The position numbers and the translations under genes are program-made. Positions 31,479-63,999 of a stretch of DNA of 64,000 bases are shown here, in pieces; within the stretch, counting starts at the first letter, position 1; every line of letters starts with the position of its first letter. This DNA comes from a virus, in IMG/VR virus record IMGVR_UViG_3300023202_000135, positions 26,693 through 90,692 of that record; one strand, 5' to 3'. Under the pieces are notes generated by a model. That model was not told the origin of the DNA and made no database searches. It worked only from the letters and a program-made list of their open reading frames with translations.

Positions 31479-31493
31479 AAGCAACGATCGTAG

Positions 31494-31570: not shown

Positions 31571-31573
31571 GCG

Positions 31574-31649
31574 TGGTACTCGTGGGCGGACTCGAACCAC
31601 CAACCTTCCGCGTATCAGACGGACGCTCTGACCATTGAGCTACACGAGA
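31574..31649 (-). tRNA. tRNA-Ile (GAT)
   Basis: 76 nt including CCA. D-arm GCTC/GAGC, anticodon stem TCCGT/GCGGA with loop CTGATAC giving GAT, T-arm GGTGG-TTCGAGT-CCGCC, acceptor with a mismatch at the first pair. Three bases from tRNA-Gly. First tRNA of the leftward array. Confidence 0.85.
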
Positions 31650-33385: not shown

Positions 33386-33464
33386 CCCAATTACGTAAGA
33401 ACTATCTCTTCCTTGAACTTGGTCAAGGCGACGGGGTGAGATTGATCCTTACGTAAAAATTGGG
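33386..33464. repeat. Inverted repeat across 3' end of capsid gene
   Basis: CCCAATTACGTAAG (33386-33399) and CTTACGTAAAAATTGGG (33448-33464) are inverted copies differing by three A/T bases and enclose about 48 bp that include the capsid stop codon at 33423-33425. Each arm contains the 8-bp palindrome TTACGTAA. The region is AT-rich compared with its surroundings. Possible RNA structure, recombination scar or homing site. Confidence 0.6.
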
Positions 33465-48429: not shown

Positions 48430-49275
48430 TCAGTCGTCCTGGGCCAGCTTTGCTCGGGGCCCCCGCTGGTATTCGTTGAGCAGGATAGCCCGCTCCTTCA
48501 CCAGACGCGGGGCGCGTGTCAGGTCGACCATCGTTCCCTGCGTGTGCTCCTGGATGAGGTCGTCGATCTGGTCATCGCTCATGTCCTGGAGTTCCTCCAG
48601 TCGATGATAGTAGGTGACCCGAACCGGCGGGGATCCGGTCTCGACGAACTTCTCAACGATCGTGCTGTAGGGCTCCGGCATGCCTTGCGGATTCTCGATG
48701 CGCGTGCCGCGCTCGACCAGAGGGGCGCGTGCCACGGGGGCGGGGTCCGGGGTGAGCGTCTCGACGTCGACGTAAGAATCGGTGTCCACGTCGACACGAT
48801 CATCGTCGTCCTCGAACAGCGGGGTGATGTTCCCGTCGTCGTCATCGTAGTGGTCGAGTCGGCTGTTGGCCTGGAGCGCGTGGTGCTCGCCCAAGTGCAC
48901 CCACGACGCGGCGATCTCGGTCGGCGTATAGCTGAGAGAGAGCGACCGTGCAGCGGCTTCGACGACTTCCTCGCCGTACTTCTCGGCCGCCTCCTGATAC
49001 TTCGCCTCGGTGTTCTCCCCCGGGCTCGTGCCCGACGCGCGCGCGCACGCGCATGCCGCGTCGAGGGCTTCGCTGACCTCGTAGATGAGCATGGCCCGGG
49101 CGAGGCGCTCGCGCGCAGGTTCGTTGAGGTTCTCGGGCAGCTCGCACGACTGGTTCGCGACGTCGTAGGCGAACCACTTGCCGTTGGGGCTGCGCTGCGG
49201 GAGGTAGCCGTCGATCTCGGGGTACGCGTAGTTGGCGTCGAGCGCGGCGAACGTGTGCGGGCACGTGAGGATCAT
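48430..49275 (-). CDS. Acidic head-cluster protein of unknown function
   Basis: 281 residues. The N-terminus has 'MILTCPHTFAALDANYAYPE' and a helical Ala-rich region with CACA ('SEALDAACACARASG'). The centre is very acidic ('HYDDDDGNITPLFEDDDDRV'), and the C-terminus is helical ('RLVKERAILLNEYQRGP'). The ATG overlaps the preceding stop by 4 bp. No family recognised. It lies between two genes for charged proteins and before the 2925-residue protein. Confidence 0.6.
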   Translation of the reverse strand: MILTCPHTFAALDANYAYPEIDGYLPQRSPNGKWFAYDVANQSCELPENLNEPARERLARAMLIYEVSEALDAACACARASGTSPGENTEAKYQEAAEKYGEEVVEAAARSLSLSYTPTEIAASWVHLGEHHALQANSRLDHYDDDDGNITPLFEDDDDRVDVDTDSYVDVETLTPDPAPVARAPLVERGTRIENPQGMPEPYSTIVEKFVETGSPPVRVTYYHRLEELQDMSDDQIDDLIQEHTQGTMVDLTRAPRLVKERAILLNEYQRGPRAKLAQDD

Positions 49276-49739
49276 GGGGCGGTCCTGTTCGTGAGCTTAC
49301 CGACAGCCTTGCCGAGGGCGGCCATCGGGTTACTGACTTGCGGTGCGCTATTCTTGAGGACCGGAGCTGCGTGCCAATCGGCATCCCCGCTCTCGGTCAA
49401 GTCGCCACTTCCAAAGGCCCCCTCGAACTCCTCGAAGCTCATCGTGACCTCTTCACCTTCGCTCACCTTCCGGCGATTCTCCCGTCCGCTGAGGCGCTTG
49501 GTGGCGCTGATGATCTCCTCCGCATCCTCGCTGATCTTCGGGACGCGCGGCTCGTGATGCTCGTCGATGTCCCCGGGCTCCGGGCGGGGCGGGGGCCTGC
49601 GTTTCGTAGTGGGCGCGGACTCGCTGACCTCGCGAGCCCCCACACGACCAAGGGCAGCGCCCATGCTGGCGATGCCTTGGCTGCCGGCGGCCTTCACGGG
49701 CGGTAGCTCGTGGTTCGGAGGCAACGGCGTATCTCCCAT
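49272..49739 (-). CDS. Disordered head-cluster protein with cleavage-type sites
   Basis: 155 residues, low complexity, Pro/Glu/Ser-rich and probably disordered. It contains 'VGAREVSESAPTTKRRPP', KVSEGEEV and DLTESGDAD, each with the [LIV]-x-E-[GS] form cut by T4-type prohead proteases. It is likely a small internal head protein or peptide precursor; inference from motif and location. Confidence 0.55.
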   Translation of the reverse strand: MGDTPLPPNHELPPVKAAGSQGIASMGAALGRVGAREVSESAPTTKRRPPPRPEPGDIDEHHEPRVPKISEDAEEIISATKRLSGRENRRKVSEGEEVTMSFEEFEGAFGSGDLTESGDADWHAAPVLKNSAPQVSNPMAALGKAVGKLTNRTAP

Positions 49740-49753
49740 GAGATTCTCCTACT

Positions 49754-49790
49754 GAAAAACCCCCCGCCCCGGTTGTGGGACGAGGGGCTT
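49754..49790 (-). terminator. Terminator after histone-like head protein gene
   Basis: Minus-strand CCCCTCGTCCC pairs with GGGGCGGGGGG across ACAACC and is followed by TTTTTC. Strong intrinsic terminator in the gap between the 49817-52381 and 49272-49739 genes. Confidence 0.8.
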
Positions 49791-49805
49791 GTCTCTCCCT
49801 GCGCG

Positions 49806-49820
49806 GTGACGCTGCGTCAA
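49806..49820. repeat. 15-bp palindrome copy at gene end
   Basis: GTGACGCTGCGTCAA, one mismatch from the consensus, overlapping the stop codon of the histone-like protein gene. Confidence 0.5.
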
Positions 49821-52381
49821 CGCTTGGCGGCGATGAGCATCCGGTCCTTGAGGAACACCAGCTCGGCCTCCTCCAAGCCGTCATGCTGCATGCGCGAGGT
49901 GGTGACCTTCTTGAAGCCCGCCTGCGCAGCGGACTCGCGGAGCACCTTCTCGTGCTTGTCGTCGTGGTACTTCACGCCGACGTCGCCGTTGCCGAACACC
50001 GTGGGCTTGAGTTCGGTCTCGTCGAGGAAGCTGCGCAGCGCGTCGTTCTCCTTCGCCACGCTCTCCATGAGGGCGGGGTTCCGGACATGGTGCTGCGTGC
50101 GCCCCAGCATGCCGGCGGCCATGGCCGGGCCCGAGTTCCGTTCGGACACCTGCCCCGTGTTGCCACGGCGCATGATGTGCGCGCCGCCGTGGGTTCCTTC
50201 CTTGAGCATGCCGCTGACGAGGCGCTGGCCTTCGTGCAGCGGGGCCTTGGGCTTGCCGTTCTGATCGGCGGACTCGGCCTTGAGGCCCTTCTTCTTGCCG
50301 ATCTTCTTCTTGCCCTTGGCCTTCTTCTTGGCGCCCGCGGCCTGCTTCTTCGCAGCGCCGGCCTTCTTCTTGGCGCCCGGCGAGGGCTTGCCCTTGGCCT
50401 GCTGCTTCTTCACGGCCTGCTTGGCGGCGGACTTGCCCTTGAGCTTCTTGCCCTTCGCCTTGCCGCCGGCAGCGGCCTTCTTCTTGCCGTGCTTCTTGGC
50501 TGCGGCCTTGCCGATGCCGCCCAGCGCTTGCTGCTGCTCCTTGGTGCGGCCAGTGGCCGCCATCCAGGCCTTGACGCCGGCCGGGGAGCCGGGTCCGGGG
50601 CCGCCCTTGCCGGACTTGTTCCCGAGCTTGCCCTTGAGCTTCTTGCCGCCCACCTTGCCGGTGGGTTTGGAGCCCGGGTCCGCGGTGTAGTCACCTCCCT
50701 TGTCGCCCTGCCCCTTGCCGGCCGCGCGGTTGATCGACCGCTTGACGAGCATCGCACCCAGCATGCGGTTGACCATGCCCTTCGCGCCGCCCTTGTGCAG
50801 CGCCTTGAAGGCCTTGCGCCCCCAGCGCCCGCCGAACGCGCGGGCATTGGCGACGGGGGCGGAGACAGCCTTGGCCTCGCTGATCGCCTTGGTGGCGATC
50901 TCGTCGATGTCGGCGTCCTCCATCTCGACGTCGGCGTCTTCGTGGATGCCCAGCTCGAAGCCGTCCTCCTCGACGGCCAGGGCGACGTGCTCGGGGTCGA
51001 TGCCGAGGGCTTCCGCGATGTCGGTTCGGGCCTTGTCGATGTCGACCTCGCCCTCCTCCATCTCGTCGTCGTAGTCGTCGTCCTTGTCCTTCTTGCTCTT
51101 GCTCTTGCTCTTGCTCTTGCCCTTGCCGCGCTCGTCGAGTTCCTCCTCGTCCATGCCGAAGAGGTGCTCGAAGGCCGCGAGGGTGGCCTTCTCCTGGAGG
51201 GTAGTGGCCTTGGCGCCCTCCGCGCCGAGCCACTGGCAGAACATCTCGACGATGTCGTCCTCATCGAGCGCCTCGGCCACGGCGTCGCCGTTGTAGCTGA
51301 CGGTCTCGTCGACGTTGGCCCCGTTGACGTAGGCGAAGTAGCCCTCGGCCACGCCCTCGGGGAGGGTCAGCTCGAACCAGTCCTCGGACTCGACCATCTT
51401 CTCGGCGGGCGAGTAGAAGTCGGGGTACCGAGCGCCGTTCGGGGTCGCCCTGCCGGTCTTCACCGGCTTGCCGTCGTTGCCCTTGGAGCCGGCCGGCGTC
51501 TTGGACGGGCGCTCCTTCTGGAGGTCGCCGCCGTAGCCCTTCTTCTCGTTCTCGGAGAGGTCGCGGGCGATGTCCTCGATCGCCTCGTCGCGCTCCTCCT
51601 CGTCGAGGGTGGTGACGTCGTAGTCGATGTCGTCCAGGCCGATCTCGGCCAAGTCGTCGAGCACGGTCTCCAGGAGGCTCTCCGGGACCAGGAGGGTGTC
51701 GTCGTGGCTCATCTCGCTCTCGTGGAGCGTGAACCACGCGTCCTCCTCGGACGAGCTGATGGTGCCGCCACGGCGCTTGCGGGCCATGGCCTGCCGGCGG
51801 CCGTACTTCCGCGTGTTCCGGCGGCGACGCATCTTGACCTTGGCCCGGTTCTTCCGGCGGCTGATGCGGCGCTTGCGGTTCTTGCGGCGCTCGTCGCTGG
51901 TCTGGATGCGCGCATTGCGCATGCGCTTCATGAGCTGGGTCTTCGACAGGGTCTTGCCCGCCTTGACCTCGTTGAGCATCTCGGGGTCATCACCCTCGTC
52001 GAGGTCGTCCTCGGTCAGCTCGGGGTCCTCTTCGATCGACTCGCGGATCGCCTCCACGAGGTCGCTATCGGTGAGGCAAGCGAGGGTCAGAAGGCCCAAG
52101 GTGCCCAGCGGCACGTCGCCGTAGGCCTCGCCGTCCTCGTCGATGAGCACGGCGTTGATGACGGGCTCGTGCTCGTACTCGATGTCCTCGGCCTCTTCGA
52201 GCCCCTCGTCGATCGCGGCGACGAGGGAACCGTAGTCGAGGCTCTCCAGGAAGCGCTCGACGGCGATCCCTTCGAGGGTGAACGAGCCGTCCTCGTTGTA
52301 GAGGATCTCGTCCGGCGCGACGGCCAGCGGCAGGCTGCCGGTGCCGTGGTCGGATTCGAGGAGGGGCGTGTCGTAAGGCAT
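49817..52381 (-). CDS. 854-residue histone-like internal head protein
   Basis: Behind AAGGAG. It starts 'MPYDTPLLESDHGTGSLPLA' with an LLE9-S10 cleavage-type site. A very basic Arg-rich block (about residues 165-205, 'RRKNRKRRISRRKNRAKVKM') follows an acidic region. A central acidic part ('FELTLPEGVAEGYFAYVNGA') precedes a long Lys/Ala/Gly block at about 560-710 built of 'KKK', 'GKA' and 'AAKK' words, like histone H1. The last 140 residues form a compact domain ('ELKPTVFGNGDVGVKYHDDK'). Alternating strong acidic and basic blocks suit DNA packaging or core assembly. Candidate protease sites: TLHE-S, PLHE-G, MLKE-G, VLRE-S. Confidence 0.65.
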   Translation of the reverse strand: MPYDTPLLESDHGTGSLPLAVAPDEILYNEDGSFTLEGIAVERFLESLDYGSLVAAIDEGLEEAEDIEYEHEPVINAVLIDEDGEAYGDVPLGTLGLLTLACLTDSDLVEAIRESIEEDPELTEDDLDEGDDPEMLNEVKAGKTLSKTQLMKRMRNARIQTSDERRKNRKRRISRRKNRAKVKMRRRRNTRKYGRRQAMARKRRGGTISSSEEDAWFTLHESEMSHDDTLLVPESLLETVLDDLAEIGLDDIDYDVTTLDEEERDEAIEDIARDLSENEKKGYGGDLQKERPSKTPAGSKGNDGKPVKTGRATPNGARYPDFYSPAEKMVESEDWFELTLPEGVAEGYFAYVNGANVDETVSYNGDAVAEALDEDDIVEMFCQWLGAEGAKATTLQEKATLAAFEHLFGMDEEELDERGKGKSKSKSKSKKDKDDDYDDEMEEGEVDIDKARTDIAEALGIDPEHVALAVEEDGFELGIHEDADVEMEDADIDEIATKAISEAKAVSAPVANARAFGGRWGRKAFKALHKGGAKGMVNRMLGAMLVKRSINRAAGKGQGDKGGDYTADPGSKPTGKVGGKKLKGKLGNKSGKGGPGPGSPAGVKAWMAATGRTKEQQQALGGIGKAAAKKHGKKKAAAGGKAKGKKLKGKSAAKQAVKKQQAKGKPSPGAKKKAGAAKKQAAGAKKKAKGKKKIGKKKGLKAESADQNGKPKAPLHEGQRLVSGMLKEGTHGGAHIMRRGNTGQVSERNSGPAMAAGMLGRTQHHVRNPALMESVAKENDALRSFLDETELKPTVFGNGDVGVKYHDDKHEKVLRESAAQAGFKKVTTSRMQHDGLEEAELVFLKDRMLIAAKR

Positions 52382-52449
52382 GAGGTGCTCCTTCTGGAGT
52401 CGGGGTCAGTTGGCGGCGCGTTTCTACACGCCGCGGAGGGGTGATGCCG

Positions 52450-54360
52450 TCAGGCGGCAGGTTCGGGGGTGAGGATCTCGTCGAGACTGTCGACCTTGAA
52501 GTAGGCGTGCAGGGCCATGGCCGTGTCCTCGTCGACCGAGACGACGGCGGTGTCGCCCGCGATCTTGACCTCCGCGTCCTTGTCGACACCGAAGTCCTTG
52601 AGGAACGCGACCGACTCGGTGAATAGGCTGCGCGGCACCGTGACCGTCTTGCCCTCGACGACGAGCTGTCCCTTGGCGTGCATGCCGACGAAGACGTCGC
52701 GGTGCTCCCCGGGCGTGCTGTCGAAGGCCTCGGCCAGCTTGGCGTGGGCGCCCTCGCTGAGGTAGAACGGGGTTCCGTCCTCGTCCTCGTAGTAGCCCTT
52801 GTGCTTCTCGGGCTCCGCGGCGAAGCCGTAGGCGTGGCCCTTGGTCTTCTTGCCCTTCTTGTTGTGCATGTGGTCGTTCTTGGGCGCTTCGTCGTCGCCC
52901 TCCTTCACGGCCAGCTTGACCTTCCGCATGCGGCGGGTCTTGCGGTCCTTGAAGTCCTTGGGCTTCTTCATCTTCTTGGTGGTGGCGTGCGGGTCGTAAC
53001 CGCGCTCGCTGATCTCCTGCGCGACGGCCAAGGCGTCCTCGGCCTCGACGATTTCGCGCTCGATGCCCTCGACCTTCTCGGCCTCCTTGAGCCGGCGGTT
53101 GGCAGCGGTCACGCCCATGCCCCCGGAGATGGTGATCGGGAAGCCATTGACCACGGTCTTGATGTGGACCGCGCGCTCATCGGAGAAGGACTCGTTGAGG
53201 TCGTTGCTGCCTTCGGCGCCCTCGTTGAGTTCGATCTCCAGGGCGTCGAGCTTGCCGCTCTTGGCCAGCTCGTCCTTGACGGCCTTCACGAACTGCTCGC
53301 CCAGCGGGCTCTCCATAACCTCGCGCATGGCCCACGACATGAGGTACTCGCTCACACCGTAGTGGGGGCTGCCCTTGAACATGTCGTAGGAGCTGAGGCG
53401 GCAGGACCCGCCGTAGCAATCGACGTTGATGCCGTCGACGACGAGCGGGCCCTTGGCCTTGGCTTCGGTGATGTAGCTGTTGTCGGCCTTCACGGGCTCA
53501 CCGCAGCAGTATTCGAGCAGAGCGGCGGCGGCTTCGATCTCCTCGCTCTCGTTGCTGTCACCGCGGATCATGTCGACGGCAATCTCGATCGCATCCTCGG
53601 TGCTCTTGCCGCGCTTGACGGCCTTCTTCACGATCTCGTTGACGATCTTCTCGTCGGCGTCCTCGCCGTGCACCTTCTGCGCGGTCTTCCAGGCAGCATC
53701 CTTGACGTCGCCCTTGTCAACGGCCTCGTCGATGGACTCCTTCATGTGCGGGGCGCCGACCGGGCGCTTGTTGGCGCGCGCCTTCGAGGGCATCGCGTCG
53801 TTCTTGATCTCCTCGCCCTGCTTCTTGGTGCCGATGGACTCGGGGATGAAGACGCGGCACTCGTGGTTGTTGATGGCGTAGACCGGCATCTCGTCGCGGT
53901 CCTCCTCATCGACCTCACTGATGCGCGGGATGCCAGCCTCTTCGATGAAGGCCTCGGCGTGCTCGCGATCCGGGAACGTGATGTGCATGAGGATACCGTC
54001 GTCGCTCTCCTGCGTAGTGGTGATGGCCCCTTCGTTCTGGTCGGCCACCTCCTCGATCGACTCGGCTGTGTGGCGCTTGAAGTGGCCGTGCGGGTTGTCG
54101 CTGGCGGGGCGCTGCGGGCTCTTGAGCGCGCTGCCGCTGGCCTTCTTCGCCTCATCCCCGCCGCCGCTGCCGTAGGCCTCGTTGAGGCGCTTGACAGTGG
54201 GCAGGGCGACGCCCGCCTCTTCCGCGACCTCAGCGGCGATCTCCAGGGCCTCGTCGTCGTCCTCGGCCTCGGACAGGTCCGTGGCGAGGCCGGGGCGCAA
54301 CCGCAGACCGTCGAGGCCTTCGTTCATCGCCCAGGCTTCGAGCAGCTTCTTGATGTCCAT
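52450..54360 (-). CDS. 636-residue head precursor protein with CTS-like leader
   Basis: Starts 'MDIKKLLEAWAMNEGLDGLR', closely resembling T4 capsid-targeting leaders that are removed after x-x-E (here LLE8-A9 or MNE14-G15). More than ten further sites of the same type occur (KRLNE-A, MKE-S, ITE-A, ELNE-G, DLNE-S, RLKE-A, YLSE-G, KLAE-A, LFTE-S), dividing the protein into segments. One segment holds a Cys-containing region ('GINVDCYGGSCRLSSYDMFK') and one a helical region. Others are Lys-rich ('KKMKKPKDFKDRKTRRMRKV'). Likely a packaged polyprotein. The gap 52382-52449 has only a weak hairpin. Confidence 0.65.
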   Translation of the reverse strand: MDIKKLLEAWAMNEGLDGLRLRPGLATDLSEAEDDDEALEIAAEVAEEAGVALPTVKRLNEAYGSGGGDEAKKASGSALKSPQRPASDNPHGHFKRHTAESIEEVADQNEGAITTTQESDDGILMHITFPDREHAEAFIEEAGIPRISEVDEEDRDEMPVYAINNHECRVFIPESIGTKKQGEEIKNDAMPSKARANKRPVGAPHMKESIDEAVDKGDVKDAAWKTAQKVHGEDADEKIVNEIVKKAVKRGKSTEDAIEIAVDMIRGDSNESEEIEAAAALLEYCCGEPVKADNSYITEAKAKGPLVVDGINVDCYGGSCRLSSYDMFKGSPHYGVSEYLMSWAMREVMESPLGEQFVKAVKDELAKSGKLDALEIELNEGAEGSNDLNESFSDERAVHIKTVVNGFPITISGGMGVTAANRRLKEAEKVEGIEREIVEAEDALAVAQEISERGYDPHATTKKMKKPKDFKDRKTRRMRKVKLAVKEGDDEAPKNDHMHNKKGKKTKGHAYGFAAEPEKHKGYYEDEDGTPFYLSEGAHAKLAEAFDSTPGEHRDVFVGMHAKGQLVVEGKTVTVPRSLFTESVAFLKDFGVDKDAEVKIAGDTAVVSVDEDTAMALHAYFKVDSLDEILTPEPAA

Positions 54361-54374
54361 GGAACTGTCCTCCG

Positions 54375-54389
54375 GTGACGCTTTGTCAG
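54375..54389. repeat. 15-bp palindrome copy in head-gene spacer
   Basis: GTGACGCTTTGTCAG, one mismatch, in the 86-bp gap upstream of the 54360 start codon and beside a GTAGTAGG motif at 54391. Confidence 0.5.
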
Positions 54390-54446
54390 CGTAGTAGGTA
54401 CTTCGGTTTCGGCCAGGGGCAACTCAGCGTGCCGCCCGGAAGGGTC

Positions 54447-56434
54447 TCAGCCCTCGTCGAACGCGGCGAGGGTCTCCGCGACGTCCGCCTTTTTGCTGCG
54501 GCGCTTGTCGCGCGGGTACTTAGGAGCAACCGTCTCCAGCGTAGCCCCGTCCGACTTCGGAGGGGCGCCGCGGTGGCTGATGATCCGGTACTTGTCCTTG
54601 TGCTTGGCCATGCCGCCGTACACGCCGGTCATGCCCGCCGTCTCGTCCACCCCGATGGGGTGGGTGTGGTCGTTGGCTTCGTCGACCGAGACCTCGATGT
54701 TCTCGCCCGCTTGGGGGTTGAAGTGCACTTCGTGTGCATGGTTCTCATCGGTGGTGCTCACGACGCGCACCACCTTGTCGGCCAGGATCGAACGAGCCTG
54801 GGCGCCGCTGATGCTGACGGTGTGCGTGTGCGGGTACTCGCCCGCTTCCTCCAAGCGGATGTCGACGTCGTCGCCCGCCGCTTCCTCCAGCTCGTCGCGG
54901 TCCACGACGTAGTGGTCTTCGTTCTTCTTGCGGCGCAGGATCCGGGAGAGCAAACCGCCGCGGCTTCGACTCTTGGTCTTGATCTTGGGCGTGCGCCGGC
55001 TCTTCTGCATCGTGCGCATCGTGTTCTTGATCGCGCGACTCTGCGCGACCTCGTCGACGCCTTCGAGCTTCGCGTAGGACGTCTCGGCCTTGTTCTTGTC
55101 GTCGCTGTCCTTCGCGGAGAGCGCAGTGATGTAGGACTTGGCGTCGCCGCTCTTCTTCGACCATCCGGAACCGGTCCAGTAGCGCATGCTGCCGTCACGG
55201 CCCTTGATGACGAGGGCGTAGCCCTTCCCCACCTTCGCAGTGGTGACGCGATCCCGGGAAGAGCGACCTTCGTCGAAGTCTTCGAGTGATTCGCTCATTT
55301 TGCCGCGCGCCCCTACACCGTAGTAGCTCTGGAGCGGCTCTCCGCAGTTGGGGCACTTCTTCGGGTACCGGCCCGGATACTTGAACACGCGGAACGTGCA
55401 GTGCGGGCACACGTGCTTCGCATCCTGGGTCATGTCGTTCATCCGGCGCAGGAGGCCGGGCGACATGGCTTCGGTCAGCTTGCGGACGTTCACGCCCTTC
55501 TTGACGTCCTTGACCCACTTCTTCGCGATCTTGATCGCTTCGTCTTCGTCGTCGATGCTTTTGCGCATGTTGATGGTGAGCCAGCCCTTGCCGTCCTTGC
55601 TGCGGATGTGCGCAACGTAGTGGTCCCGGTGGTAGGACAGGTTGTACCCTGGTCCGCGCAGGCGCGCTTCGTCGAGGCTCTCCTTGAGCTTGCCGGCGGC
55701 GAACTTCTTGCCCTTGTCGGTGACTTCGCCCGCGGCGTCGACGTAGCCCATCTTGATGAGCTTGCCCATGACGGACGAGCCCACATTGGCGCGGCCCTTG
55801 ATGATGCCCTGGACCTTCTTGCGCAGCGAGACCGCAGACGAGCCTTCGTCGATGATCGACGCGCCCGTCGATTCCTTGAGCAGGTCCTTGAGGCGCTGTC
55901 CTCCCTTGAGCTTCACCTCGTGCTTGCGGACGTTGATCCACTGCGGCTTGCCGATCACCTTGACCTTCACCTGGATCATGTCCTTTGTCTGGCCGCGCGG
56001 CAGCCGTCGAGCGATCTTGTCCGGCAGCGGGCGCACGTCGAATACCTTATTCTTGAGCTGGATGCCGGACGTGCCCTGGGGAGGGTAGTAGGTGCCGACG
56101 TCGCGGGCTTCGTCGAGGCGGGCTTCGGTGATCTTGCTGCCGTCGTCCCAATCGCCCAGCTCGTCGACGGGTGACACTTCGTCACCGGCGTCGTCGTAAT
56201 CCATCGGAGTCATGGTGCCGTCGTCGGAGATGAGCAGGGCGCGCTGTTGGCCCTGGACGATGAAGCCGGCCTCCGACTCATGGACAGCGGTGGCCTCGTC
56301 ACCGTTGCGGCGCATGAAGGCGCGCCCGCTTTCTGCGGCGAGCAGGGCGAGGGTGCCGAGGTTATGCGCCTCGGTCAGCGGGGCGCTCTCGTTGATGTCG
56401 GTCTGGAAGAGCGTGGCGAGTTGGGAAGCGTTCA
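54447..56434 (-). CDS. 662-residue head precursor protein with zinc and His motifs
   Basis: Start at ATG 56434 is preferred: its leader 'MNASQLATLFQTDINESAPL' has cleavage-type sites INE16-S17 and LTE22-A23, while the 20-residue upstream extension runs through a promoter. About residues 341-365 form a zinc ribbon (CPHC ... CPNC). The C-terminal region has three His clusters (PHTHTV, NHAHEV, NDHTHP) that look like a metal-binding repeat. Additional sites: LKE-S, ITE-A, LTE-A, LEE-A, MSE-S. A Lys/Arg-rich stretch ('SRSRGGLLSRILRRKKNEDH') links domains. Probably processed and packaged. Confidence 0.65.
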
Positions 56435-56467
56435 TGGTGGCCGTCCTGTGGGGCAGCGTAGTGGTTG

Positions 56468-56495
56468 ATAGTCTCTGATTCGGGCGCGAAGTCAA
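56468..56495 (-). promoter_or_regulatory. Possible promoter before 662-residue head protein
   Basis: Minus-strand TTGACT (56490-56495) and GACTAT (56468-56473) 16 bp apart, with CCACTACG just downstream, as at the promoter at 38842. The -10 match is weak. Confidence 0.4.
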
Positions 56496-56533
56496 CGAAG
56501 GCGTGCCCTCTCAATCGTCGTCGAGGCCCTCGA

Positions 56534-56881
56534 TCACGAACCACTCGTCGGGTCCATCGGCTGGGGGTGCGGCCGGCGGTAGGGGTGTGTCGGAGGCCTC
56601 CGTGATGGGAGGAGCTTGAAAGGCTGGGCGAATGGGCTGGATATGAGGGTCTGGTACATGAGATGCGTCTCGGGCTCGATCTCCGCGATCTTGTCGGAAC
56701 CTCGCTGGAGCACGCGTTCGAGAAGGCCAAGTGCGGCGCTTGACGGATCGCACCTCACGAACATCCGCACCTTGTACGGGCTCGACATGATCCGGTCCCA
56801 CAAGTCACGCTCCTCCGGGCCGCCGTCGACGGGGAACCATAGTCCAGGGAAGCCGAAGATGATCTCGGTGATATGGTTCAT
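56534..56881 (-). CDS. Small protein with possible frameshifted C-terminus
   Basis: 115 residues from ATG 56881 (ATGA overlap with the preceding stop). The first 85 residues look natural ('MNHITEIIFGFPGLWFPVDG', 'LGLLERVLQRGSDKIAEIEP'). The last 30 are Pro/Arg/His-rich and look out of frame. The -1 frame from about 56640 reads 'ITEASDTPLPPAAPPADGPD' and ends EWFVIEGLDDD at 56511, which looks genuine and includes a cleavage-type ITE-A. A programmed -1 shift or a sequence error is possible. No clear slippery heptamer is visible. Confidence 0.5.
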   Translation of the reverse strand: MNHITEIIFGFPGLWFPVDGGPEERDLWDRIMSSPYKVRMFVRCDPSSAALGLLERVLQRGSDKIAEIEPETHLMYQTLISSPFAQPFKLLPSRRPPTHPYRRPHPQPMDPTSGS

Positions 56882-57579
56882 GGCGCATGCAAAGCCCCGT
56901 CGTTGATGGTGATGCCCGGGACGTAGCCGTTCTTGATCCCGCGCGACAAGGCCCCGATCGCGGATCGGTCGTGTGCGTAGTGGTGCTCGATCCCAGCAAC
57001 AGCTTCCTTGAGCGTGATTCCGGGGTGGCCCCGCACGTGCAGCAGAAGTCGGTGGCACGTGCCTTTGAACGGGGACCAGCTTACGCCACCGGCCGATCCT
57101 GCGGGCTTAAAGTTCTTGGCGATGTCGACGAGCCAAGGGTCCAGGCGGTTAGTACGCTTGTCCCGATGTTCCGGGTCGCTCAGTGACCGGACCTTGTAGC
57201 GGTAGCTCTCGATGACGTCGTCGACGATCACGTCCGCGCCCTTCGACACGGTCAGCATTCCGACGCCTCGTTCCCGCGCGATCCGGCAGCCGAGGACCCA
57301 CGCCCTGCGCTGAGTCGAGCAGTTGTTGAAGTACGGTACCGCGATCGAGGAGCGGTTGACGTCGCGGTGGCGGCGCAGGCTTTGAGAGAGGACTTCCAAG
57401 GACAGGGCGCGCTTGCACTCGATGCCCCACAGCACGTCGCCCTTCTGCGCCACCATGTCGATGTGTGCGATCTCTTGATAGACCGACCAGCCATTTGCAC
57501 GCAGCCAACCGACGACGCGCTCAGCGAGTTCGCACTCACTGTCGAATCGTAGTGGCTTGTGCTTGGCGCGTCGCGGCAT
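56878..57579 (-). CDS. PD-(D/E)XK-type nuclease-like protein
   Basis: 233 residues. 'ELAERVVGWLRANGWSVYQE' followed by IDMVAQKGDVLWGIECKRA has the order Glu, Asp and ECK of restriction-endonuclease-like folds. 'SLRRHRDVNRSSIAVPYFN' would complete the core. The C-terminal 90 residues contain 'LLLHVRGHPGITLKEAVAG', a winged-helix-like segment that may bind DNA. It is part of a coupled block of small genes. Recombination, Holliday-type cleavage or host DNA degradation are possible roles; the sequence does not choose. Confidence 0.6.
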   Translation of the reverse strand: MPRRAKHKPLRFDSECELAERVVGWLRANGWSVYQEIAHIDMVAQKGDVLWGIECKRALSLEVLSQSLRRHRDVNRSSIAVPYFNNCSTQRRAWVLGCRIARERGVGMLTVSKGADVIVDDVIESYRYKVRSLSDPEHRDKRTNRLDPWLVDIAKNFKPAGSAGGVSWSPFKGTCHRLLLHVRGHPGITLKEAVAGIEHHYAHDRSAIGALSRGIKNGYVPGITINDGALHAP

Positions 57580-57582
57580 CGC

Positions 57583-57864
57583 TCAGGGTTCCTCCCCTGG
57601 CAACAGGCACACGTCCTCGCTGCCGGCGACGCCGGGGTCGCACGCCACGTGATACCCAATCGGTTGGGCGAGGTGATTGATGAGGTCGATGACGGTGACG
57701 TAGGTCTGGTCGTCCTCCATCGTCACGTTGTCACCGAAGGCCTCGACCAAGTCCGGCTCGCTGGTGATGTTCACCTGCTCGTCGAGGAAGTCCGCGATGG
57801 ATGAACGGTTGATGGCGGTGATCCGATTGCGGACCAACCCGGCCGAGGCAGCGTTCAGTGACAT
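57583..57864 (-). CDS. Small conserved-looking protein
   Basis: 93 residues, acidic, with 'TAINRSSIADFLDEQVNITS' and 'YVTVIDLINHLAQPIGYHVA' and two Cys near the C-terminus. It overlaps the preceding gene by 10 bp and is 3 bp from the nuclease gene. No family recognised. Confidence 0.55.
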   Translation of the reverse strand: MSLNAASAGLVRNRITAINRSSIADFLDEQVNITSEPDLVEAFGDNVTMEDDQTYVTVIDLINHLAQPIGYHVACDPGVAGSEDVCLLPGEEP

Positions 57865-58103
57865 TGGGCCTCCAGCTCTTCGAGCGGGTCGAAGATGTCG
57901 ACGTGTTTGTTGGTGATGGGGTTGAGCACGCGGATGCGGCGAACCACGGTATGTCGACGGTCGGGGTTGCGCATCACGCCGTGGCCGATCTCAGCAAGAG
58001 CTTGGACTCGGTCGCTTCCGCCCGGGGCGTTCACGCGCAGGATCCCGTCCTTGGTCTCGACAGCGAGGTCCCCGGGCATCGGGTCGTTCATGTTGATTCG
58101 CAT
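57855..58103 (-). CDS. Small protein with strong ribosome site
   Basis: 82 residues from ATG 58103 behind AAAGGAG. Between the ribosome site and ATG lies CCACTACG, a copy of the dispersed motif. The sequence ('PGDLAVETKDGILRVNAPGG', 'HTVVRRIRVLNPITNKHVDI') is beta-rich with an acidic end. No family recognised. Confidence 0.6.
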   Translation of the reverse strand: MRINMNDPMPGDLAVETKDGILRVNAPGGSDRVQALAEIGHGVMRNPDRRHTVVRRIRVLNPITNKHVDIFDPLEELEAQCH

Positions 58104-58117
58104 CGTAGTGGCTCCTT

Positions 58118-58480
58118 TCAAGCGGATTGACGGTTGGGCCATAGGAAGTGCCCGGCGATGAAGCCTGTGATGAACTTCCCGGGGAGTATGAGCCAGTGCG
58201 CGCCGAGGGTGAAGTCCAAGGCGACCATGCCGGCGAGGAGCGCAGTCAGCGGGGCGATGACCTGCCACGGCTTCCGGTCCTTGTCGATGGGCCAGAAGAA
58301 GTGCCCCATGAGCGCGCCGAGGGCGAAAGGGACCGCGCTGGTCTTGAGGCTGAGGCTGGTGATGACGGCGCTGATCGTGTTGCCCTCAGTGCTGTCGAGG
58401 GCAAGGCCGATGTCCCAGGCGATGAGCCCGGCCGTCGCCACGAGGATGATGGATAGGGTGAGTATCTGTGCTTTGGTCAT
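58118..58480 (-). CDS. Membrane protein with four predicted helices
   Basis: 120 residues from ATG 58480, overlapping the preceding gene by 4 bp. Four hydrophobic stretches are visible: 'ILTLSIILVATAGLIAWDIG', 'TSAVPFALGALMGHFFWPI', 'VIAPLTALLAGMVALDFTL' and 'FITGFIAGHFLWP'. Helices 2 and 4 end in the same GHF-[FL]-WP word, suggesting an internal duplication. Size and topology would fit a holin or membrane-associated exclusion protein, but no lysin is nearby, so the role is open. Confidence 0.6.
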   Translation of the reverse strand: MTKAQILTLSIILVATAGLIAWDIGLALDSTEGNTISAVITSLSLKTSAVPFALGALMGHFFWPIDKDRKPWQVIAPLTALLAGMVALDFTLGAHWLILPGKFITGFIAGHFLWPNRQSA

Positions 58481-58776
58481 CGACTCTTCCGTCGCTGGTT
58501 GCGGTGCGCCTTCGTAGTGGCACGAGTGCACAACCGGTCGAACGTTTCGGACATGCCGTTGTCCTGCGGCAGCATGCACTGGCCGTCCGGCGGTGTGCCC
58601 TCGCCCTGCTCGATCTTATCCCTGCACCGGCGGAGGCTCTCGCGGTACGCGTCCTCGTCGCCGCCGTAGACCACGTCGATGATGCGGCGCTGTTCGGATT
58701 CGCGCTCCTCATCGGTGATGCCATAGACCTTCGGCTCCAGGGCCGGGTGTGTCTCGGTGGGGGTAGGCGTTCGCAT
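58477..58776 (-). CDS. Small charged protein
   Basis: 99 residues from ATG 58776 behind GGAGGTGA. Charged and helical ('GITDEERESEQRRIIDVVYG', 'YRESLRRCRDKIEQGEGTPP') with three Cys and a basic C-terminus. Overlaps the membrane protein gene by 4 bp. Upstream frame extension is antisense-like. No family recognised. Confidence 0.55.
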   Translation of the reverse strand: MRTPTPTETHPALEPKVYGITDEERESEQRRIIDVVYGGDEDAYRESLRRCRDKIEQGEGTPPDGQCMLPQDNGMSETFDRLCTRATTKAHRNQRRKSR

Positions 58777-58777
58777 G

Positions 58778-59122
58778 TCAGTCACCTCCGTCCTTGTTGC
58801 GGTGGATCGTCGCGGTGTCTGCCTTCGCTCGCTTCTCGTGGCGCGCGGACAGCTCCGCGTGGAGACGTTGCATCGCGATGTCGATGTGCTGCACCGGCGG
58901 CTGTCCGAGCATGATGAGCACGACGTTGAAGCCACTGAGCACGAGTCGGTAGTCCCACGAGTGGCCGCTCCCTTGCATCTGGTAGAGGAGCGGCATGTCC
59001 CCTGCGGTCTCGATCACGTCGTAGTTGCGCGCGCAGGCAGCGACGAACGACACGAGGTCCTCGCTCGGGTTACGTCCGATTGGTAGCTCGAACGATTCGT
59101 GGTTGCGGAGTAGCTGGATCAC
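58778..59122 (-). CDS. Small protein coupled to giant NUDIX protein gene
   Basis: 114 residues from GTG 59122, whose GTGA overlaps the stop of the giant protein gene. It contains 'LVSFVAACARNYDVIETAGD', 'SWDYRLVLSGFNVVLIMLGQ' and a Lys/Arg-rich end. The start is inferred from the overlap; an upstream frame extension is out of context. Function unknown. Confidence 0.55.
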   Translation of the reverse strand: MIQLLRNHESFELPIGRNPSEDLVSFVAACARNYDVIETAGDMPLLYQMQGSGHSWDYRLVLSGFNVVLIMLGQPPVQHIDIAMQRLHAELSARHEKRAKADTATIHRNKDGGD

Positions 59123-62100
59123 AAGTCCCCCTTCTCTTGCTTCTTGAGGACGGACGCGGCCCACCGCTTGCCGGGGTCGCCGCCGAACGCGAGGAACATG
59201 GCCTTGCCGCCTTCCGTGGACTTGTCGGCCTCGCACTCGAAGAACTCGTGGATGCGCTTGGCCTCGGACAGCGGCACAGCAGACGTCAGAGCAGGGGCCT
59301 TGAGGATGCCCTCGACCATGCCGAGCTTGGATATGCGCGTGATGCCGCGCTTATGGGCGCGCTCGACCGCAGACGGCGGTGTGAACGTCTCCTCGACCAA
59401 AGCGACGTGCTCCACGATGACTCCGAGCACCTCATCCGGGATGTCGAAGTCGCTTCGTAGTAGGCGGGCCTCCTTGAAGTATTGCTTGGGCGAGATGTAC
59501 GCGGCTTTGCCCTTCTCGGCCTTCTTGCGCGGCTTCGCCCCCTTCTTGTACATGTCCCATGCGAGGGCGAAGGCCTTGTCCTTGGCCATGCCCTTGGCCT
59601 TCATCGCCTTGACCGTTCCGCTGAATCCGGGAGGGGCCTTCTCGTCGAGGCTCTCCTCCTGTGACGCTTCGTCACCGGGCGCGGGCTCTTCCTCGGGCTC
59701 TTCGTCCTCCGGCGGTTCCTCGCCGCCCCCGCCGGCTCCTGGTTCCTGGCCGAGCTGGTCGGCCGTAGTGGTGACCGGTCGCGGCTCCAACGTGGGCACG
59801 GTGTTCGTGATGCGGCCGACCGGGTTGATCTCCAGCTTCTTGAGCTTGAACTTAATGCGCGTCTGCTGGATCGCCTTCTTCTCGTCCATGCCTCCGACGA
59901 TGAGCATGTTGAGCCAGTCCTGCACGTCATCGAGATAGAACCCGATCTCAGGGACCCCGTACACGTTGGCGTCGGCCTTCTGGTTCCCCTTGGCCTTCGT
60001 AGTGGTCTTGGGATTCGCGCCCTGGTTGTCCGCGCCCGCGTTGTTGGACGGGGCTTCGTTGAGGTCGTCGATGGATTCGCGCAGCTTGAGCTTCTTGCCT
60101 TTGAACTCGGGGTCGCCGTACTTCACGCTCACGATCTCGGCCCAATCACCGACCTTGTCGAGCCACGTGCGCATCGCGGAGCGGGAGCCGAATGCAGCGA
60201 CCGCCCGACCATCTGCCCAATGAACGACCCATGCCTTGCCCTTGGCGGCGCGGTCTTCGGGGCCCTCGGCCTTGTTGATCGCCTTGAGGTCGGCCGCGGT
60301 GGGTGGTGCGTTCTTCTCGAACAGGACGGCTTCGCCCTCGCCCTCGGAGGCACGCTTCTTCTTGGCCGCGGGGTTGTCGAGCTTGGAGCGGAACTGCGGC
60401 GGGACCACGCTCTCCTGCACCTGCGGGTCGCCCTCTCCGTAGTCGTCTGCCCACGGCATGGGGCGACCATTGTTCAAGGCCTTGTGCATCTCGTTGAAGG
60501 CCCACCAGAGCTGGAACTCATCGCTGGGGATCTCCATGATGACGCCTTCGTTGAGGCCCATGCAATCGAGGCACTCGATCTTCCATGCCCCCGAATAGGA
60601 CGGCATGCGGAAGCGCGTGTTGCGGCCCTCGCATACCGGGCAGGGCTTGTCGCAGGGCCGGGCGCCCTCATCGAGCGACTCTTGGGTCTGCCGGCGGCAG
60701 TCCTTGCACGTGAGGATCCAGTCGTTCTCGGCCGTGGACTCACGGTAGTAGGTGTCGGGGCTGCCGCACTTCGGGCAGGCCTTCGCCACTTCGTCGATCG
60801 CGGTCTCCCGGAGGCCCAGCTTCTTGAGGTACTTCTTCACCTTGCGCTTGGTCGGCAGGCGCGCGACGACGTTGCCGCCCATGAAGTCGGCCGTGTACCC
60901 TCCGACGTTGGTCGAGACGGTGACCTCATTGGGGGCTTCCGCGAGGTGACGGTCGATCTCGTCGAAGCCGTCCTGGATCAGCTCACCAGCGCAGGTGAGA
61001 CCCAGGCGATGCGCGAGGATGCCAAGCGAGAAGTTGTCAGCGCGCACCACCGCCACGCCCTGCACCTCTTCGCAAGGAATGCCGAGCTGCTGTGCGATGG
61101 GTGACACGTCGTCAAAGGGCTTCTCGTCGATCACGAGGCAGTGGCCGCGACGATCGTAGTTGACGCGGCTGAGCACGCTCTCGTTGTGCCGGCGAAAAGC
61201 CTTGGACAACGCGACCACTTCCTGTTCCGCATCGGTCAGACCTTCGATCTCCTCGCTCTCGTTGATCTCTGTACCGGTGCGGCGCAGCACGTAGCTCAGG
61301 TACTTGCGCAGTCCCATGTCGTTGTCGATGGCGAGGGGCTTGGATCGGGTGTAGCTACCGATCACCCCTTCCGACAACACACCACCGTGGTTCCACGCCT
61401 CATGGACCGCGTGTTCCATGATCTCGGCCGTCTCGTCGAGGCCCAGGCGATGCGCGGCGAGCGCAACGACGGCCGGGGCGCCCTCGATGACGTGGTGCTT
61501 GCCGATGGCGGACGCGTTGAGGCCGAAGAGCTTCGCGACCTTCGGTGCGTCCTCGTGCTCGGTCACCAGAACGTAGTGGTCCCCGGTCGTCGCTTCCACG
61601 AGCCGGGCCATGGCGCGGTCCTCATGGCGGCGCGTGTAATGATACCCGATCGTGTTCGCATGCTTCCCTTCGTGGATCGCGGTGCGGCGAACAACATACC
61701 GGCTGAGCACCTCGTGGCTCTCATTGAGTCGCTCGACGATGCGACGGTAGACGCGCCCGCGCTTCATTTTCTCGGCCGTCTCGTTCACTTCTTCGGTGAG
61801 GCGGGCCGGAGGGATGATGACGATGGCCTCGTCGATGTCGTACCACTCCAGGTGCCGGGCGAGGCCGTCGACCACCGTGTTGATGATCGGGATGGCGTCG
61901 ACCTCGTTGAGCAAGGTCTTGTGGTCGAGCTTGCCGTTGGCCGTGCGCACGCCGAAGTCGAAGGCGGTGATGTGCGGGTCGTTCTGTACTTCGATCATGG
62001 TCGATACGTAGTGGTGCTTGCCGACGTCGAACTCGTAGACGCTCTCGCGCTTTGCTTTGGCGTGTCGCTCTTTCTTGATGGTGTGCGTTCGGACGCGCCG

Positions 62101-63999
62101 GTACGCGGCCTTGGTGGCTTGGTCGTCGCTCTTGCCCGCCTTCTTCGCCTTCTTGAACGCGCCGTTCATCTCCAGCGCCTCAACATCGAACTCGTTGATG
62201 TGACCGGCGCGGTGCAGCTCATCCACTGCGATAGCCGTGACGCGCTTCACCTCGTCGACCGTGTGCTTGCTGAGGGCGGTCTGGATGTTGGCCTTGAGGT
62301 ACTCGTCGAGCCTGCCCTCCTTGTCGGCCGCCGCGGCGTTCCTGGCCATCGTCTCCCACGCCGCACCTGCTCCGGCGATGTGCTTGCGCAGCTCATCGTC
62401 GCTGGACTTGAGGAGGTCGATCCCTTCGTTGAGCGCATTCGGGATAACGGCGGCAAGGCTCTCGTTCTTCTTGCCCGCATCCGGCGTGCCAGGGGCCTTG
62501 CGCAGGCCGGCGGAGGCGCGCTTCTTGGCCCGGACCTTCTTGTCCTGCTCAGGGCCGTAGTGGCGGTTGCCGATGTTCACGCCGATCGAGCCGCCCTTAA
62601 TCCCCTTCACGAGGCTCGACCAGCGCATGATCTTGGGCTTCTGCTTCTTGACGCCGTCCTTGAGGGACCACTGCGACTGCGCGAGCAGGATGCGATCCGA
62701 GTTGAGGTCGCGCTTCGCGATCGTCCACCACTGGTTGCCCATCATCACGGACTTGCCCTGGACGAGGTACTCCTTGAGCTGCTCCTCGCTGGGCCCGCTC
62801 TCGTTGATGATGATACTCTCGGTGACGCCTTCGTTCTTCGCCTTCGGCTGGTAGAGTCCGCGGCTGGCCGCCTTCTTGAGCGCATAGCGCAGGGCCTTGA
62901 GGTCGCGCTTGCGAACCGTGCGGCTCTTGGACCGCTCCAGGAAGTCGATGGCGTCGGCCGGGTGTACCCACTTGATTTGCTCGGTCTCTCGGTCGTGGCG
63001 CCCGGAGCGGCCGATGACCTGCATGAGGTAGTAGGTCGTGATACTGGTCGTGCCCTTCAAGCTGGCGAGCTTGGTGAGGATCTTGGCCTTGTACCCTGTC
63101 TCTTCCTCAACCTCTCGGACCGCTGCTTCCTCGGCGGTCTCGCCCGGGTCGACAGTGCCCTTCGGCCACGTCCAGTGCGCACCGCCGAAGTGGTTGCGCG
63201 GCTCGCGAATCAGCACCTCGCCCTTCTTGTTGAACACGACGCCGCCGGCCGACAGCTTGGGCTGGTACTTCTTGGGCTTGAAGTGCTGCTTGGTCTTGGG
63301 GTCATCGGCCACGGCCTTCTTGCGGCCAGCGCCGAAGAAGCCTTCGTCGACGTCGTCGCCCACGCGGTCAGCGTAGTTGGCGATGAGCCACTCCTCAAAC
63401 TCCTCGGCGTTGCCTTCGTCGAGGTCGATGAGCCAGTTCCACCACACGTCGTCCGGGATGCCTTCGGGCTGATGGTCCCACTGCTCCTGCAACTCCGCGT
63501 CGAGCTTCTCAATGTCCTCGTCGGTGGGCGTGGCCGGGTCGTTGGCCGGGACACGTAGTTGGTGTGCGTCCTCCAGGAACCGGGCCGTGGTCTGGTCCAT
63601 GAGGTCGTCGGGGATGTCGATGACGTCGTAGGCGTCCTCGGTGATCTTGGTCTGGTCCTTCACCTTGACGTTGCGGTCCGCCTTCTGTTCGACGCCGACA
63701 CGGTACTCCGCGCGACCGTCCTTTCGGAGGCTGATGGTCGCGTCGCTGCTGGGGTGCCGGTAGATGAGCGCGTTGCCGCGCACGCTCGCCTTGAGCCAGC
63801 CCGCCTTGGACAGCGCCTTCTTCGCCTTGGCCGGGTCGAGCTTGCCGAGCGGTGCAACGGGCTTGCGGGCGTTAGGCAGTACGAGGCCTTCGCCTGCGTA
63901 GTGGTGCGTGAAGCGCTTGAGCGGTTGGTCGCCTCGGGCATAGGTTCCGGCGTAGGCTTCGACGATGATTCCTTCGGTCACCAACGCGTTCCAACGCAA
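59119..63999 (-). CDS. Giant packaged polyprotein with NUDIX domain, 5' end outside window
   Basis: At least 1626 residues; the frame is open to the window edge, so the true start is upstream. Residues of about 248-360 (numbered from 63999) are a complete NUDIX hydrolase: 'SAGGVVFNKKGEVLIREPRN', then the Nudix box with 'GETAEEAAVREVEEETGY', all catalytic Glu present. Two zinc ribbons lie at about 1070-1103 (CPKC ... CKDC) and 1116-1146 (CPVC ... CLDC). More than 20 [LIVM]-x-E-[GSA] sites are spread through it (VTE-G, VTE-S, ALNE-G, RLNE-S, VLSE-G, SLDE-G, GLNE-G, DLNE-A, PLSE-A). This suggests maturation into many peptides by the prohead protease and delivery with DNA. Confidence 0.7.
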   Translation of the reverse strand: MRWNALVTEGIIVEAYAGTYARGDQPLKRFTHHYAGEGLVLPNARKPVAPLGKLDPAKAKKALSKAGWLKASVRGNALIYRHPSSDATISLRKDGRAEYRVGVEQKADRNVKVKDQTKITEDAYDVIDIPDDLMDQTTARFLEDAHQLRVPANDPATPTDEDIEKLDAELQEQWDHQPEGIPDDVWWNWLIDLDEGNAEEFEEWLIANYADRVGDDVDEGFFGAGRKKAVADDPKTKQHFKPKKYQPKLSAGGVVFNKKGEVLIREPRNHFGGAHWTWPKGTVDPGETAEEAAVREVEEETGYKAKILTKLASLKGTTSITTYYLMQVIGRSGRHDRETEQIKWVHPADAIDFLERSKSRTVRKRDLKALRYALKKAASRGLYQPKAKNEGVTESIIINESGPSEEQLKEYLVQGKSVMMGNQWWTIAKRDLNSDRILLAQSQWSLKDGVKKQKPKIMRWSSLVKGIKGGSIGVNIGNRHYGPEQDKKVRAKKRASAGLRKAPGTPDAGKKNESLAAVIPNALNEGIDLLKSSDDELRKHIAGAGAAWETMARNAAAADKEGRLDEYLKANIQTALSKHTVDEVKRVTAIAVDELHRAGHINEFDVEALEMNGAFKKAKKAGKSDDQATKAAYRRVRTHTIKKERHAKAKRESVYEFDVGKHHYVSTMIEVQNDPHITAFDFGVRTANGKLDHKTLLNEVDAIPIINTVVDGLARHLEWYDIDEAIVIIPPARLTEEVNETAEKMKRGRVYRRIVERLNESHEVLSRYVVRRTAIHEGKHANTIGYHYTRRHEDRAMARLVEATTGDHYVLVTEHEDAPKVAKLFGLNASAIGKHHVIEGAPAVVALAAHRLGLDETAEIMEHAVHEAWNHGGVLSEGVIGSYTRSKPLAIDNDMGLRKYLSYVLRRTGTEINESEEIEGLTDAEQEVVALSKAFRRHNESVLSRVNYDRRGHCLVIDEKPFDDVSPIAQQLGIPCEEVQGVAVVRADNFSLGILAHRLGLTCAGELIQDGFDEIDRHLAEAPNEVTVSTNVGGYTADFMGGNVVARLPTKRKVKKYLKKLGLRETAIDEVAKACPKCGSPDTYYRESTAENDWILTCKDCRRQTQESLDEGARPCDKPCPVCEGRNTRFRMPSYSGAWKIECLDCMGLNEGVIMEIPSDEFQLWWAFNEMHKALNNGRPMPWADDYGEGDPQVQESVVPPQFRSKLDNPAAKKKRASEGEGEAVLFEKNAPPTAADLKAINKAEGPEDRAAKGKAWVVHWADGRAVAAFGSRSAMRTWLDKVGDWAEIVSVKYGDPEFKGKKLKLRESIDDLNEAPSNNAGADNQGANPKTTTKAKGNQKADANVYGVPEIGFYLDDVQDWLNMLIVGGMDEKKAIQQTRIKFKLKKLEINPVGRITNTVPTLEPRPVTTTADQLGQEPGAGGGGEEPPEDEEPEEEPAPGDEASQEESLDEKAPPGFSGTVKAMKAKGMAKDKAFALAWDMYKKGAKPRKKAEKGKAAYISPKQYFKEARLLRSDFDIPDEVLGVIVEHVALVEETFTPPSAVERAHKRGITRISKLGMVEGILKAPALTSAVPLSEAKRIHEFFECEADKSTEGGKAMFLAFGGDPGKRWAASVLKKQEKGDL
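59661..59675. repeat. 15-bp palindrome, exact copy inside giant gene
   Basis: GTGACGCTTCGTCAC. Example of the intragenic copies; others read exactly at 3931, 16657, 22453, 36456, 39003 and 56171, and with one or two mismatches at 4916, 43103, 45797, 48050 and 61101. Confidence 0.65.

Follow-up and report, generated by a model that had tools for sequence, protein, structure and literature searches.

Why should the head operon of an uncultured T4-related phage be bordered by several large proteins that are crowded with short words resembling the cleavage sites of a prohead protease? This question is raised by the window analyzed here, which is the right-hand 64 kb (64,000 nucleotides) of the 90,692-base uncultured virus contig IMGVR_UViG_3300023202_000135, the end of the window being also the end of the contig. 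A sequence-only reading of this DNA had proposed that five neighboring proteins, rich in words of the form [LIVM]-x-E-[GSA], are giant precursors that are imported into the prohead and cut into many products. Our analysis suggests that the four large proteins are probably precursors (polyproteins) of internal head proteins, which would be cut inside the prohead. All genes discussed, i.e., the five open reading frames (ORFs), the protease and the capsid protein, are located on the minus strand. The five ORFs are as follows, with sizes in amino acids (aa):

59119-63999, minus strand: putative cargo polyprotein, at least 1626 aa, 24 words; TTG at 63999, may be truncated
54447-56435, minus strand: putative cargo polyprotein, 662 aa, 14 words
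52450-54360, minus strand: putative cargo/core polyprotein, 636 aa, 18 words; leader MDIKKLLE|AWAMNE|G
49817-52381, minus strand: putative core-type precursor, 854 aa, 20 words; acidic and basic segments alternate
49272-49739, minus strand: 155-aa protein, 3 words; word excess not convincing

All five exist, except that the one originally placed at 54447-56434 was out of frame, with its ATG located at 56435. The ORF of at least 1626 aa (below, the 1626-aa protein) runs to the contig end, and its N-terminus is therefore unproven.

We compared the number of words in each protein with the mean of 5000 residue shuffles. The observed counts were 20 versus 4.3 in the 854-aa protein, 18 versus 3.8 in the 636-aa protein, 14 versus 2.1 in the 662-aa protein and 24 versus 6.7 in the 1626-aa protein, and none of the 5000 shuffles reached the observed value in any of the four. 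The anticipated excess over shuffled proteins was thus found, far above the shuffled level, in the four large proteins but not convincingly in the 155-aa protein, which has 3 words versus 0.86 in shuffles (p 0.05). Around glutamate in these proteins, position P3 is L, I, V or M in 40% of the cases against a background of 20%, while P1' is G, S or A in 35% against 25%. The hydrophobic P3 and the small P1' occur together 79 times, as compared to 51.7 under independence, and D, N, S and T are preferred at P2. No such signal was detected around D, K, R, Q, T, A, S or N in the same proteins, nor in 20 other proteins of the window, even around glutamate.

These acidic proteins otherwise show little similarity, and the words might accordingly be thought an artefact of Glu-rich proteins of high GC content that undergo no processing at all. 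This is very improbable, since composition-preserving shuffles, other residues, other proteins in the window and scrambled words all fail to reproduce the excess. Chance or composition as the source of the word excess was ruled out by the shuffles and the residue controls.

As a positive control, the same statistic was applied to positions 100-116 kb of T4, where only gp21 and gp22, known to be self-cut and degraded, respectively, were flagged, and to SP-15 and Colly_1, where only the protease-scaffold was flagged. A scan of 3456 ORFs on 14 contigs gave the strongest signals for protease-scaffolds and for giant proteins beside the head operon. The words also tend to come in pairs: the junction E[SGA][LIVM]xE, typically E|SVDE|A, was recovered 69 times in 13 proteins versus 6.6 times in shuffles (maximum 15 among 500 shuffles).

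A gp21-like protease had been suggested at position 34987, and it was identified there with an intact triad, in the same operon as the capsid protein:

34987-36870, minus strand: gp21-type prohead protease, 627-aa ORF (Pfam PF03420, 7.9e-12, above cut-off)
33423-34928, minus strand: gp23-type major capsid protein (Pfam PF07068, 3.5e-38)

The protease domain covers residues 82-245, and its triad, H155/S209/D233, aligns with H85/S140/D168 in T4 gp21 and is invariant in an alignment of 11 sequences (T4, SP-15 and nine of the window lineage). The ORF thus combines a Peptidase_S77 profile match with the His/Ser/Asp triad that marks this family. It is also rich in words itself (18 versus 3.6 in shuffles), a feature not mentioned in the sequence-only reading. 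The C-terminal 365 aa contain 14 words versus 2.8 expected, and no protease homology was found in this part, so that the ORF looks like a protease-scaffold fusion. A similar fusion in Maribacter phage Colly_1 is annotated as "prohead core scaffolding protein and protease". In the capsid protein, [LIV][DN]E is located directly before the mature domain in 18 of 18 full-length relatives (E84 in the window protein), and the next residue is A, V or T in the aligned relatives. A search with the T4 portal profile gave no match in the contig and none in any control either, and is uninformative.

What, then, lies between the words? The following parts were recognized in the four large proteins:

62938-63258, minus strand: NUDIX domain, residues 248-354 of the 1626-aa protein (Pfam PF00293, 9.8e-20)
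62425-62799, minus strand: module, residues 401-525 of the 1626-aa protein, between INE400|S and LNE525|G
60691-60783, minus strand: zinc-ribbon stretch, residues 1073-1103 of the 1626-aa protein, Lar-like, below the Pfam cut-off
59518-59649, minus strand: 45-aa module, residues 1451-1494 of the 1626-aa protein, ESLDE|K directly before
56196-56435, minus strand: N-terminal domain, residues 1-80 of the 662-aa protein, from AlphaFold2 (AF2) and a hidden Markov model (HMM)
55290-55469, minus strand: zinc-ribbon fragment, residues 323-382 of the 662-aa protein, between LTE322|A and MSE382|S
53221-53463, minus strand: module, residues 300-380 of the 636-aa protein, between ITE299|A and LNE380|G
51719-51994, minus strand: protamine-like segment rich in Arg, net charge +22 (854-aa protein, residues 130-221), with a word on either side
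50231-50875, minus strand: segment rich in Lys, net charge +53 (854-aa protein, residues 503-717), flanked by ISE502|A and LHE717|G

The NUDIX domain contains no internal words and is flanked by words at residues 219 and 394/400. Its Nudix box, GTVDPGETAEEAAVREVEEETGY, is intact, and it is Ap4A/Ap6A-hydrolase-like, as indicated by both sequence and fold matches in PDB to Ndx1. An AF2 model of residues 200-530 gave a confident NUDIX fold at about residues 247-379 and low confidence at residues 212-223, 388-402 and from 478 on, which is where the words at 219, 394, 400 and 525 are located. The domain is thus predicted to be folded between disordered linkers that hold the words. The zinc-ribbon stretch of the same protein sits between words at 1021 and 1111. 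The 45-aa module has 75% identity to part of another giant ORF in the relative G020 and is also present in the relatives G018 and G009, with no match in cultured phages.

Capsid proteins with 53-68% identity to that of the window are encoded at 19 loci. Giant site-rich proteins were identified in several of these relatives as well (2619 aa with 37 words in G009, 2503 aa with 33 words in G018, 2081 aa with 22 words in G003 and at least 1656 aa with 21 words in G012), and G007 and G011 have site-rich polyproteins of 1173, 1112 and 671 aa. On contigs that extend far enough, the gene order is polyprotein(s), a protein similar to the acidic and basic 854-aa protein, an ORF of 2400-2900 aa, the protease and the capsid protein, and the window has the same order. 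The long ORF, 2925 aa in the window (39621-48398, minus strand) with counterparts of 2400-2700 aa in relatives, is not enriched in words (13 versus 9.3); its residues 1323-1373 match NUDIX weakly, and the match is clearer at this place in relatives.

The polyproteins share blocks in differing orders and in differing parent proteins. Residues 389-528 of the 1626-aa protein align with a different polyprotein in G007 (39% identity), a counterpart to residues 305-384 of the 636-aa protein (39% identity) is found in a polyprotein of G011 that belongs to the 662-aa type, and a zinc ribbon in G009 (residues 1051-1098) is found at another position in G018 (residues 1373-1422). In total, 44% of 158 homology-block ends are located within 10 aa of a word, as compared to 24% by circular shift, and 0 of 1000 shifts reached the observed value. 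This enrichment was absent for [LIVM]xD[GSA], [LIVM]x[KR][GSA], [LIVM]x[AQNT][GSA] and the reversed word [GSA]xE[LIVM]. Within the limits used, no direct homologs to the 636-aa protein, the 662-aa protein or the 2503-aa protein of G018 were found in cultured phages, and the 1626-aa protein matched cultured phages only through NUDIX. Scans of IMG/VR recovered one relative of the 1626-aa protein and none of the 636-aa protein, which shows that the module set changes rapidly.

The proteins might instead be scaffold or core proteins similar to T4 gp22, gp67 and gp68, which are cut to small peptides that leave the head for DNA entry, in which case the domains described here would be structural filler and no cargo would be delivered. 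T4 gp22 has a comparable density of words (10 in 269 aa) and is degraded to fragments that mostly leave the head (PMC9026906), and a scaffold- or core-like appearance is shared by the acidic stretches of the 854-aa protein and the 636-aa protein with its densely spaced words. The acidic pieces of the 854-aa protein have net charges of -10 to -15 and its basic pieces are 215 and 92 residues long and bounded by words; cutting would split neutralizing acidic linkers from DNA-binding peptides. The acidic-then-basic order recurs in nine relatives, next to the polyproteins or the operon, and this family may be core rather than cargo. The 1626-aa and 662-aa proteins do not resemble the gp22 type, which is coiled, yields small fragments and lacks folded enzyme domains, although the 854-aa protein is possible as core. 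Furthermore, the NUDIX domain with its intact catalytic box and the zinc ribbons lie undivided between words, and the relatives show the same for a P-loop kinase and for a domain common to separate phage genes. The modules are variable and shuffled between phages, unlike an essential scaffold, and the protease ORF already has a scaffold-like tail. Scaffold function is thus an unlikely explanation. Peptides resembling the Arg-rich, protamine-like segment of the 854-aa protein (residues 130-221), and likewise bounded by words, were also observed in G018 (L056:2004-7967, residues 840-925) and, in similar form, in G009 (L025).

At the level of sequence, the P-loop kinase module is the strongest single piece of evidence that the four proteins are cargo precursors. 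This kinase (AAA_33/zeta-like; AAA_33 1.6e-12 and 5.4e-12) forms one of the modules of the chains in G018 and G009, and it is a separate gene of 220 or 222 aa in Pelagibacter phage HTVC008M and Methylophilales phage Melnitz. The separate genes open with MIPFILKE|GLYDPGIFKAFFLAGGPGSGKT in HTVC008M and MKTFAELQE|GVYDPNIFKAIFLAGGPGSGKS in Melnitz, while the joints in the chains read ELAVDE|GVYDPFALKAVFMTGGAGSGKS in G009, DETDE|GINDRYILKAVFMTGGAGAGKS in G018 and SEVTE|GVNDKHIFKAIFTAGGPGSGKT in gp053 of Atu_ph07. The kinase starts at E|G in both settings, and the same E|G is thus the end of a leader or the joint of a module; in this respect, a module of a chain is equivalent to a separate gene with a leader. 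Both G012 and G018 encode homologs to the zinc ribbon of the 662-aa protein as small genes of their own. Likewise, one G018 module corresponds to a separate 137-aa gene in G020, and Aeromonas phage 65 has a separate gene for a ParB-like module found in G018. As expected of a polyprotein, predicted products that exist as separate genes in relatives are joined in these chains at protease words.

The combination of disparate domains also fits the concept of polyvalent proteins (Iyer et al., 2017; PMC5512222), according to which a multi-domain chain is injected whole, or is cut by its own or by host peptidases after injection; the words would then reflect the composition of acidic linkers. The chains do contain at least two disparate domains (NUDIX, zinc-ribbon stretches and shared unknown modules), and acidic runs also mark the module borders. 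Yet an embedded MPTase/zincin or other peptidase, a common but not universal theme of such proteins, was not found: searches for peptidase domains gave no match in the polyproteins of the window (Pfam/PHROGs) or of the relatives (Pfam). In addition, only Glu combined with a hydrophobic P3 and a small P1' shows the enrichment, which disappears when Asp is substituted for Glu, and the leaders of the stand-alone kinase counterparts end in the same word. We regard this alternative as decidedly improbable.

How might the precursors reach the prohead? At least three of the proteins had been suggested to begin with a short leader ending in a site. Of these candidate leaders, LLE9|S (MPYDTPLLE|S) and MNE14|G are present, the latter together with LLE8|A (MDIKKLLE|A), whereas INE16|S of the 662-aa protein is located inside a confidently predicted fold and is thus probably not a leader cleavage site. 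The 1626-aa protein would begin with MRWNALVTE|G if the TTG at 63999, at the contig end, is its start. When residues 1-130 of the 662-aa protein were modeled with AF2, a compact domain with a predicted local distance difference test (pLDDT) score above 90 extended to about residue 80 and was followed by disorder, with pLDDT below 50 from residue 84; the words at 104/109 are located in the disordered part. Since this N-terminal domain heads polyproteins in G011, G007, G018 and G009, it is a candidate packaging domain. It was also identified by HMM on shorter proteins in G015 and G003, and a fold search gave no convincing match (best E 0.26).

We propose that a leader or a small domain at the N-terminus would draw the precursors into the prohead core. 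Once the shell has closed, the gp21-type protease encoded in the same operon would cleave them after L/I/V/M-x-E. Most cuts would fall in disordered acidic linkers, often at paired sites (E|S-V-D-E|A), and would release folded domains (the NUDIX enzyme, zinc ribbons and unknown domains) and basic DNA-binding peptides. The folded modules and the basic peptides would stay with the packaged DNA while the small acidic linkers would be lost, as in T4, and the products would enter the host together with the DNA. The proposal of the sequence-only reading is supported in part, by the word excess, the protease with its intact triad, the words at module borders, the NUDIX and zinc-ribbon domains, the basic stretches and the recurrence of the same architecture in relatives; inclusion of the 155-aa protein and cutting at every word are not supported.

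Several points weigh against this model. Cleavage, packaging and injection are predictions from sequence. Not every word can be taken as a cut site: those at residues 16, 22 and 53 of the 662-aa protein lie inside the confidently predicted fold and are probably not cut, and 4 words, few as compared to the 9.6 expected, are located inside other recognized domains. Word counts therefore overstate the sites, and the real sites are fewer. The exact cleavage rule is uncertain because P1' need not be small, as indicated by the A, V or T at the capsid protein site. Acidic DD/DE runs are also enriched at module borders, 1.7-fold, so the joints are acidic linkers too and part of the border signal is linker composition. 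Finally, conservation of whole words in aligned relatives is 45%, versus 38-44% for some control words, and is not decisive.

More broadly, we lean slightly towards the view that a lineage of double-stranded DNA phages related to T4 delivers its proteins for host takeover in the form of shuffled cassettes within giant cargo polyproteins, with a packaging domain in front, interchangeable effector modules and paired E|S-V-D-E|A joints, such that a new effector is a cassette inserted between two sites. If so, tailed phages would use a polyprotein strategy, which is better known from animal RNA viruses, and the capsid protease would also free co-packaged proteins in equal amounts. The set of injected proteins could then be read from the sequences of uncultured phages by cutting at paired sites and folding the pieces, and many of the freed proteins should act on host defence or metabolism. 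This would also suggest that nature already provides a cassette system by which a T4-like capsid can be loaded with several proteins, and it would make testable why some phage head genes are enormous.

Other features of the window were also recorded:

32652-33323, minus strand: gene for a NUMOD4/HNH homing-type endonuclease that has an extra sigma-70 region 4-like helix-turn-helix, immediately behind the capsid gene
30455-31649, minus strand: tRNA cluster of six genes (Gln, Asn, Ser, Thr, Gly, Ile), a short distance downstream from the capsid gene
27760-28794, minus strand: ADP-ribosylglycohydrolase (PF03747, 5e-57) in the late region, possibly reflecting an NAD/ADP-ribose conflict with the host
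18734-21490, minus strand: tail sheath protein, unusually long (918 aa)

How do the proposed precursors compare with known systems? The specificity of T4 gp21 for L/I-x-E, the leaders of internal proteins and the multi-site cutting of the scaffold are established (PMC9026906). Much as we propose for the window proteins, the T4 proteins IPI-III and Alt are cargo that enters the prohead on a leader cut by an S77 protease after L/I-x-E, and Alt is also cut at its C-terminus (PMC5694885). Each of these T4 genes encodes a single protein that is cut once or twice, whereas the chains described here have many domains, 600 to more than 1600 aa (up to 2619 aa in relatives) and many putative internal sites. 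T4 gp22, gp67 and gp68 similarly have multiple gp21-type words per protein and belong to the same operon, and gp22 was flagged by the same statistic, but gp22 is a degraded scaffold, whereas the proteins described here contain folded modules, namely an enzyme and zinc ribbons, which are shuffled from phage to phage.

The ejection proteins of phiKZ and SPN3US have long propeptides that are cut by gp175/gp245 at several sites, and in SPN3US the prohead protease cuts inner head proteins and propeptides at several sites after x-x-E (PMC10052503). There, only the propeptides are cut, at the motif S/A-x-E, to give one mature protein per gene, and no multi-cargo chains were found reported for these phages in the open-access literature. 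The polyvalent proteins proposed in 2017 are predicted injected phage proteins that likewise combine several unrelated biochemical domains in one chain, and their authors draw the analogy to polyproteins (PMC5512222); an embedded MPTase/zincin is invoked for them, while none was found embedded here, and we attribute the cutting to the capsid protease acting in trans.

The Agrobacterium phage Atu_ph07 (NC_042013, L099) has ten consecutive genes, gp053-gp062, each of which opens with M[KR]W-x2-L-x-E, and gp063 is a variant. The products of gp053-gp063, annotated as hypothetical, share a near-identical 8-residue leader, M[KR]W-x2-L-[TN]-E, and are probably capsid-targeted internal proteins. Mass spectrometry identified 29 virion proteins across the cluster formed by CDS 31-76, which includes gp053-gp062, nearly all without an assigned function (PMC6102473). 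Like the window proteins, gp053 is a chain of two or more domains with L-x-E/V-T-E at the joints, and it has the same kinase module, but Atu_ph07 mostly has one cargo per gene, few internal words and a different capsid lineage. We place no weight on the M[KR]W leader, since it occurs in the window lineage only on the ORF at the contig end. In the open-access literature, no paper was found that describes multi-cargo chains cut by a capsid protease, which agrees with the earlier statement that no system with so many sites in single proteins had been described, although T4 gp22 has a comparable density. The novelty is thus not the density of sites but the proposed giant multi-domain cargo precursors.

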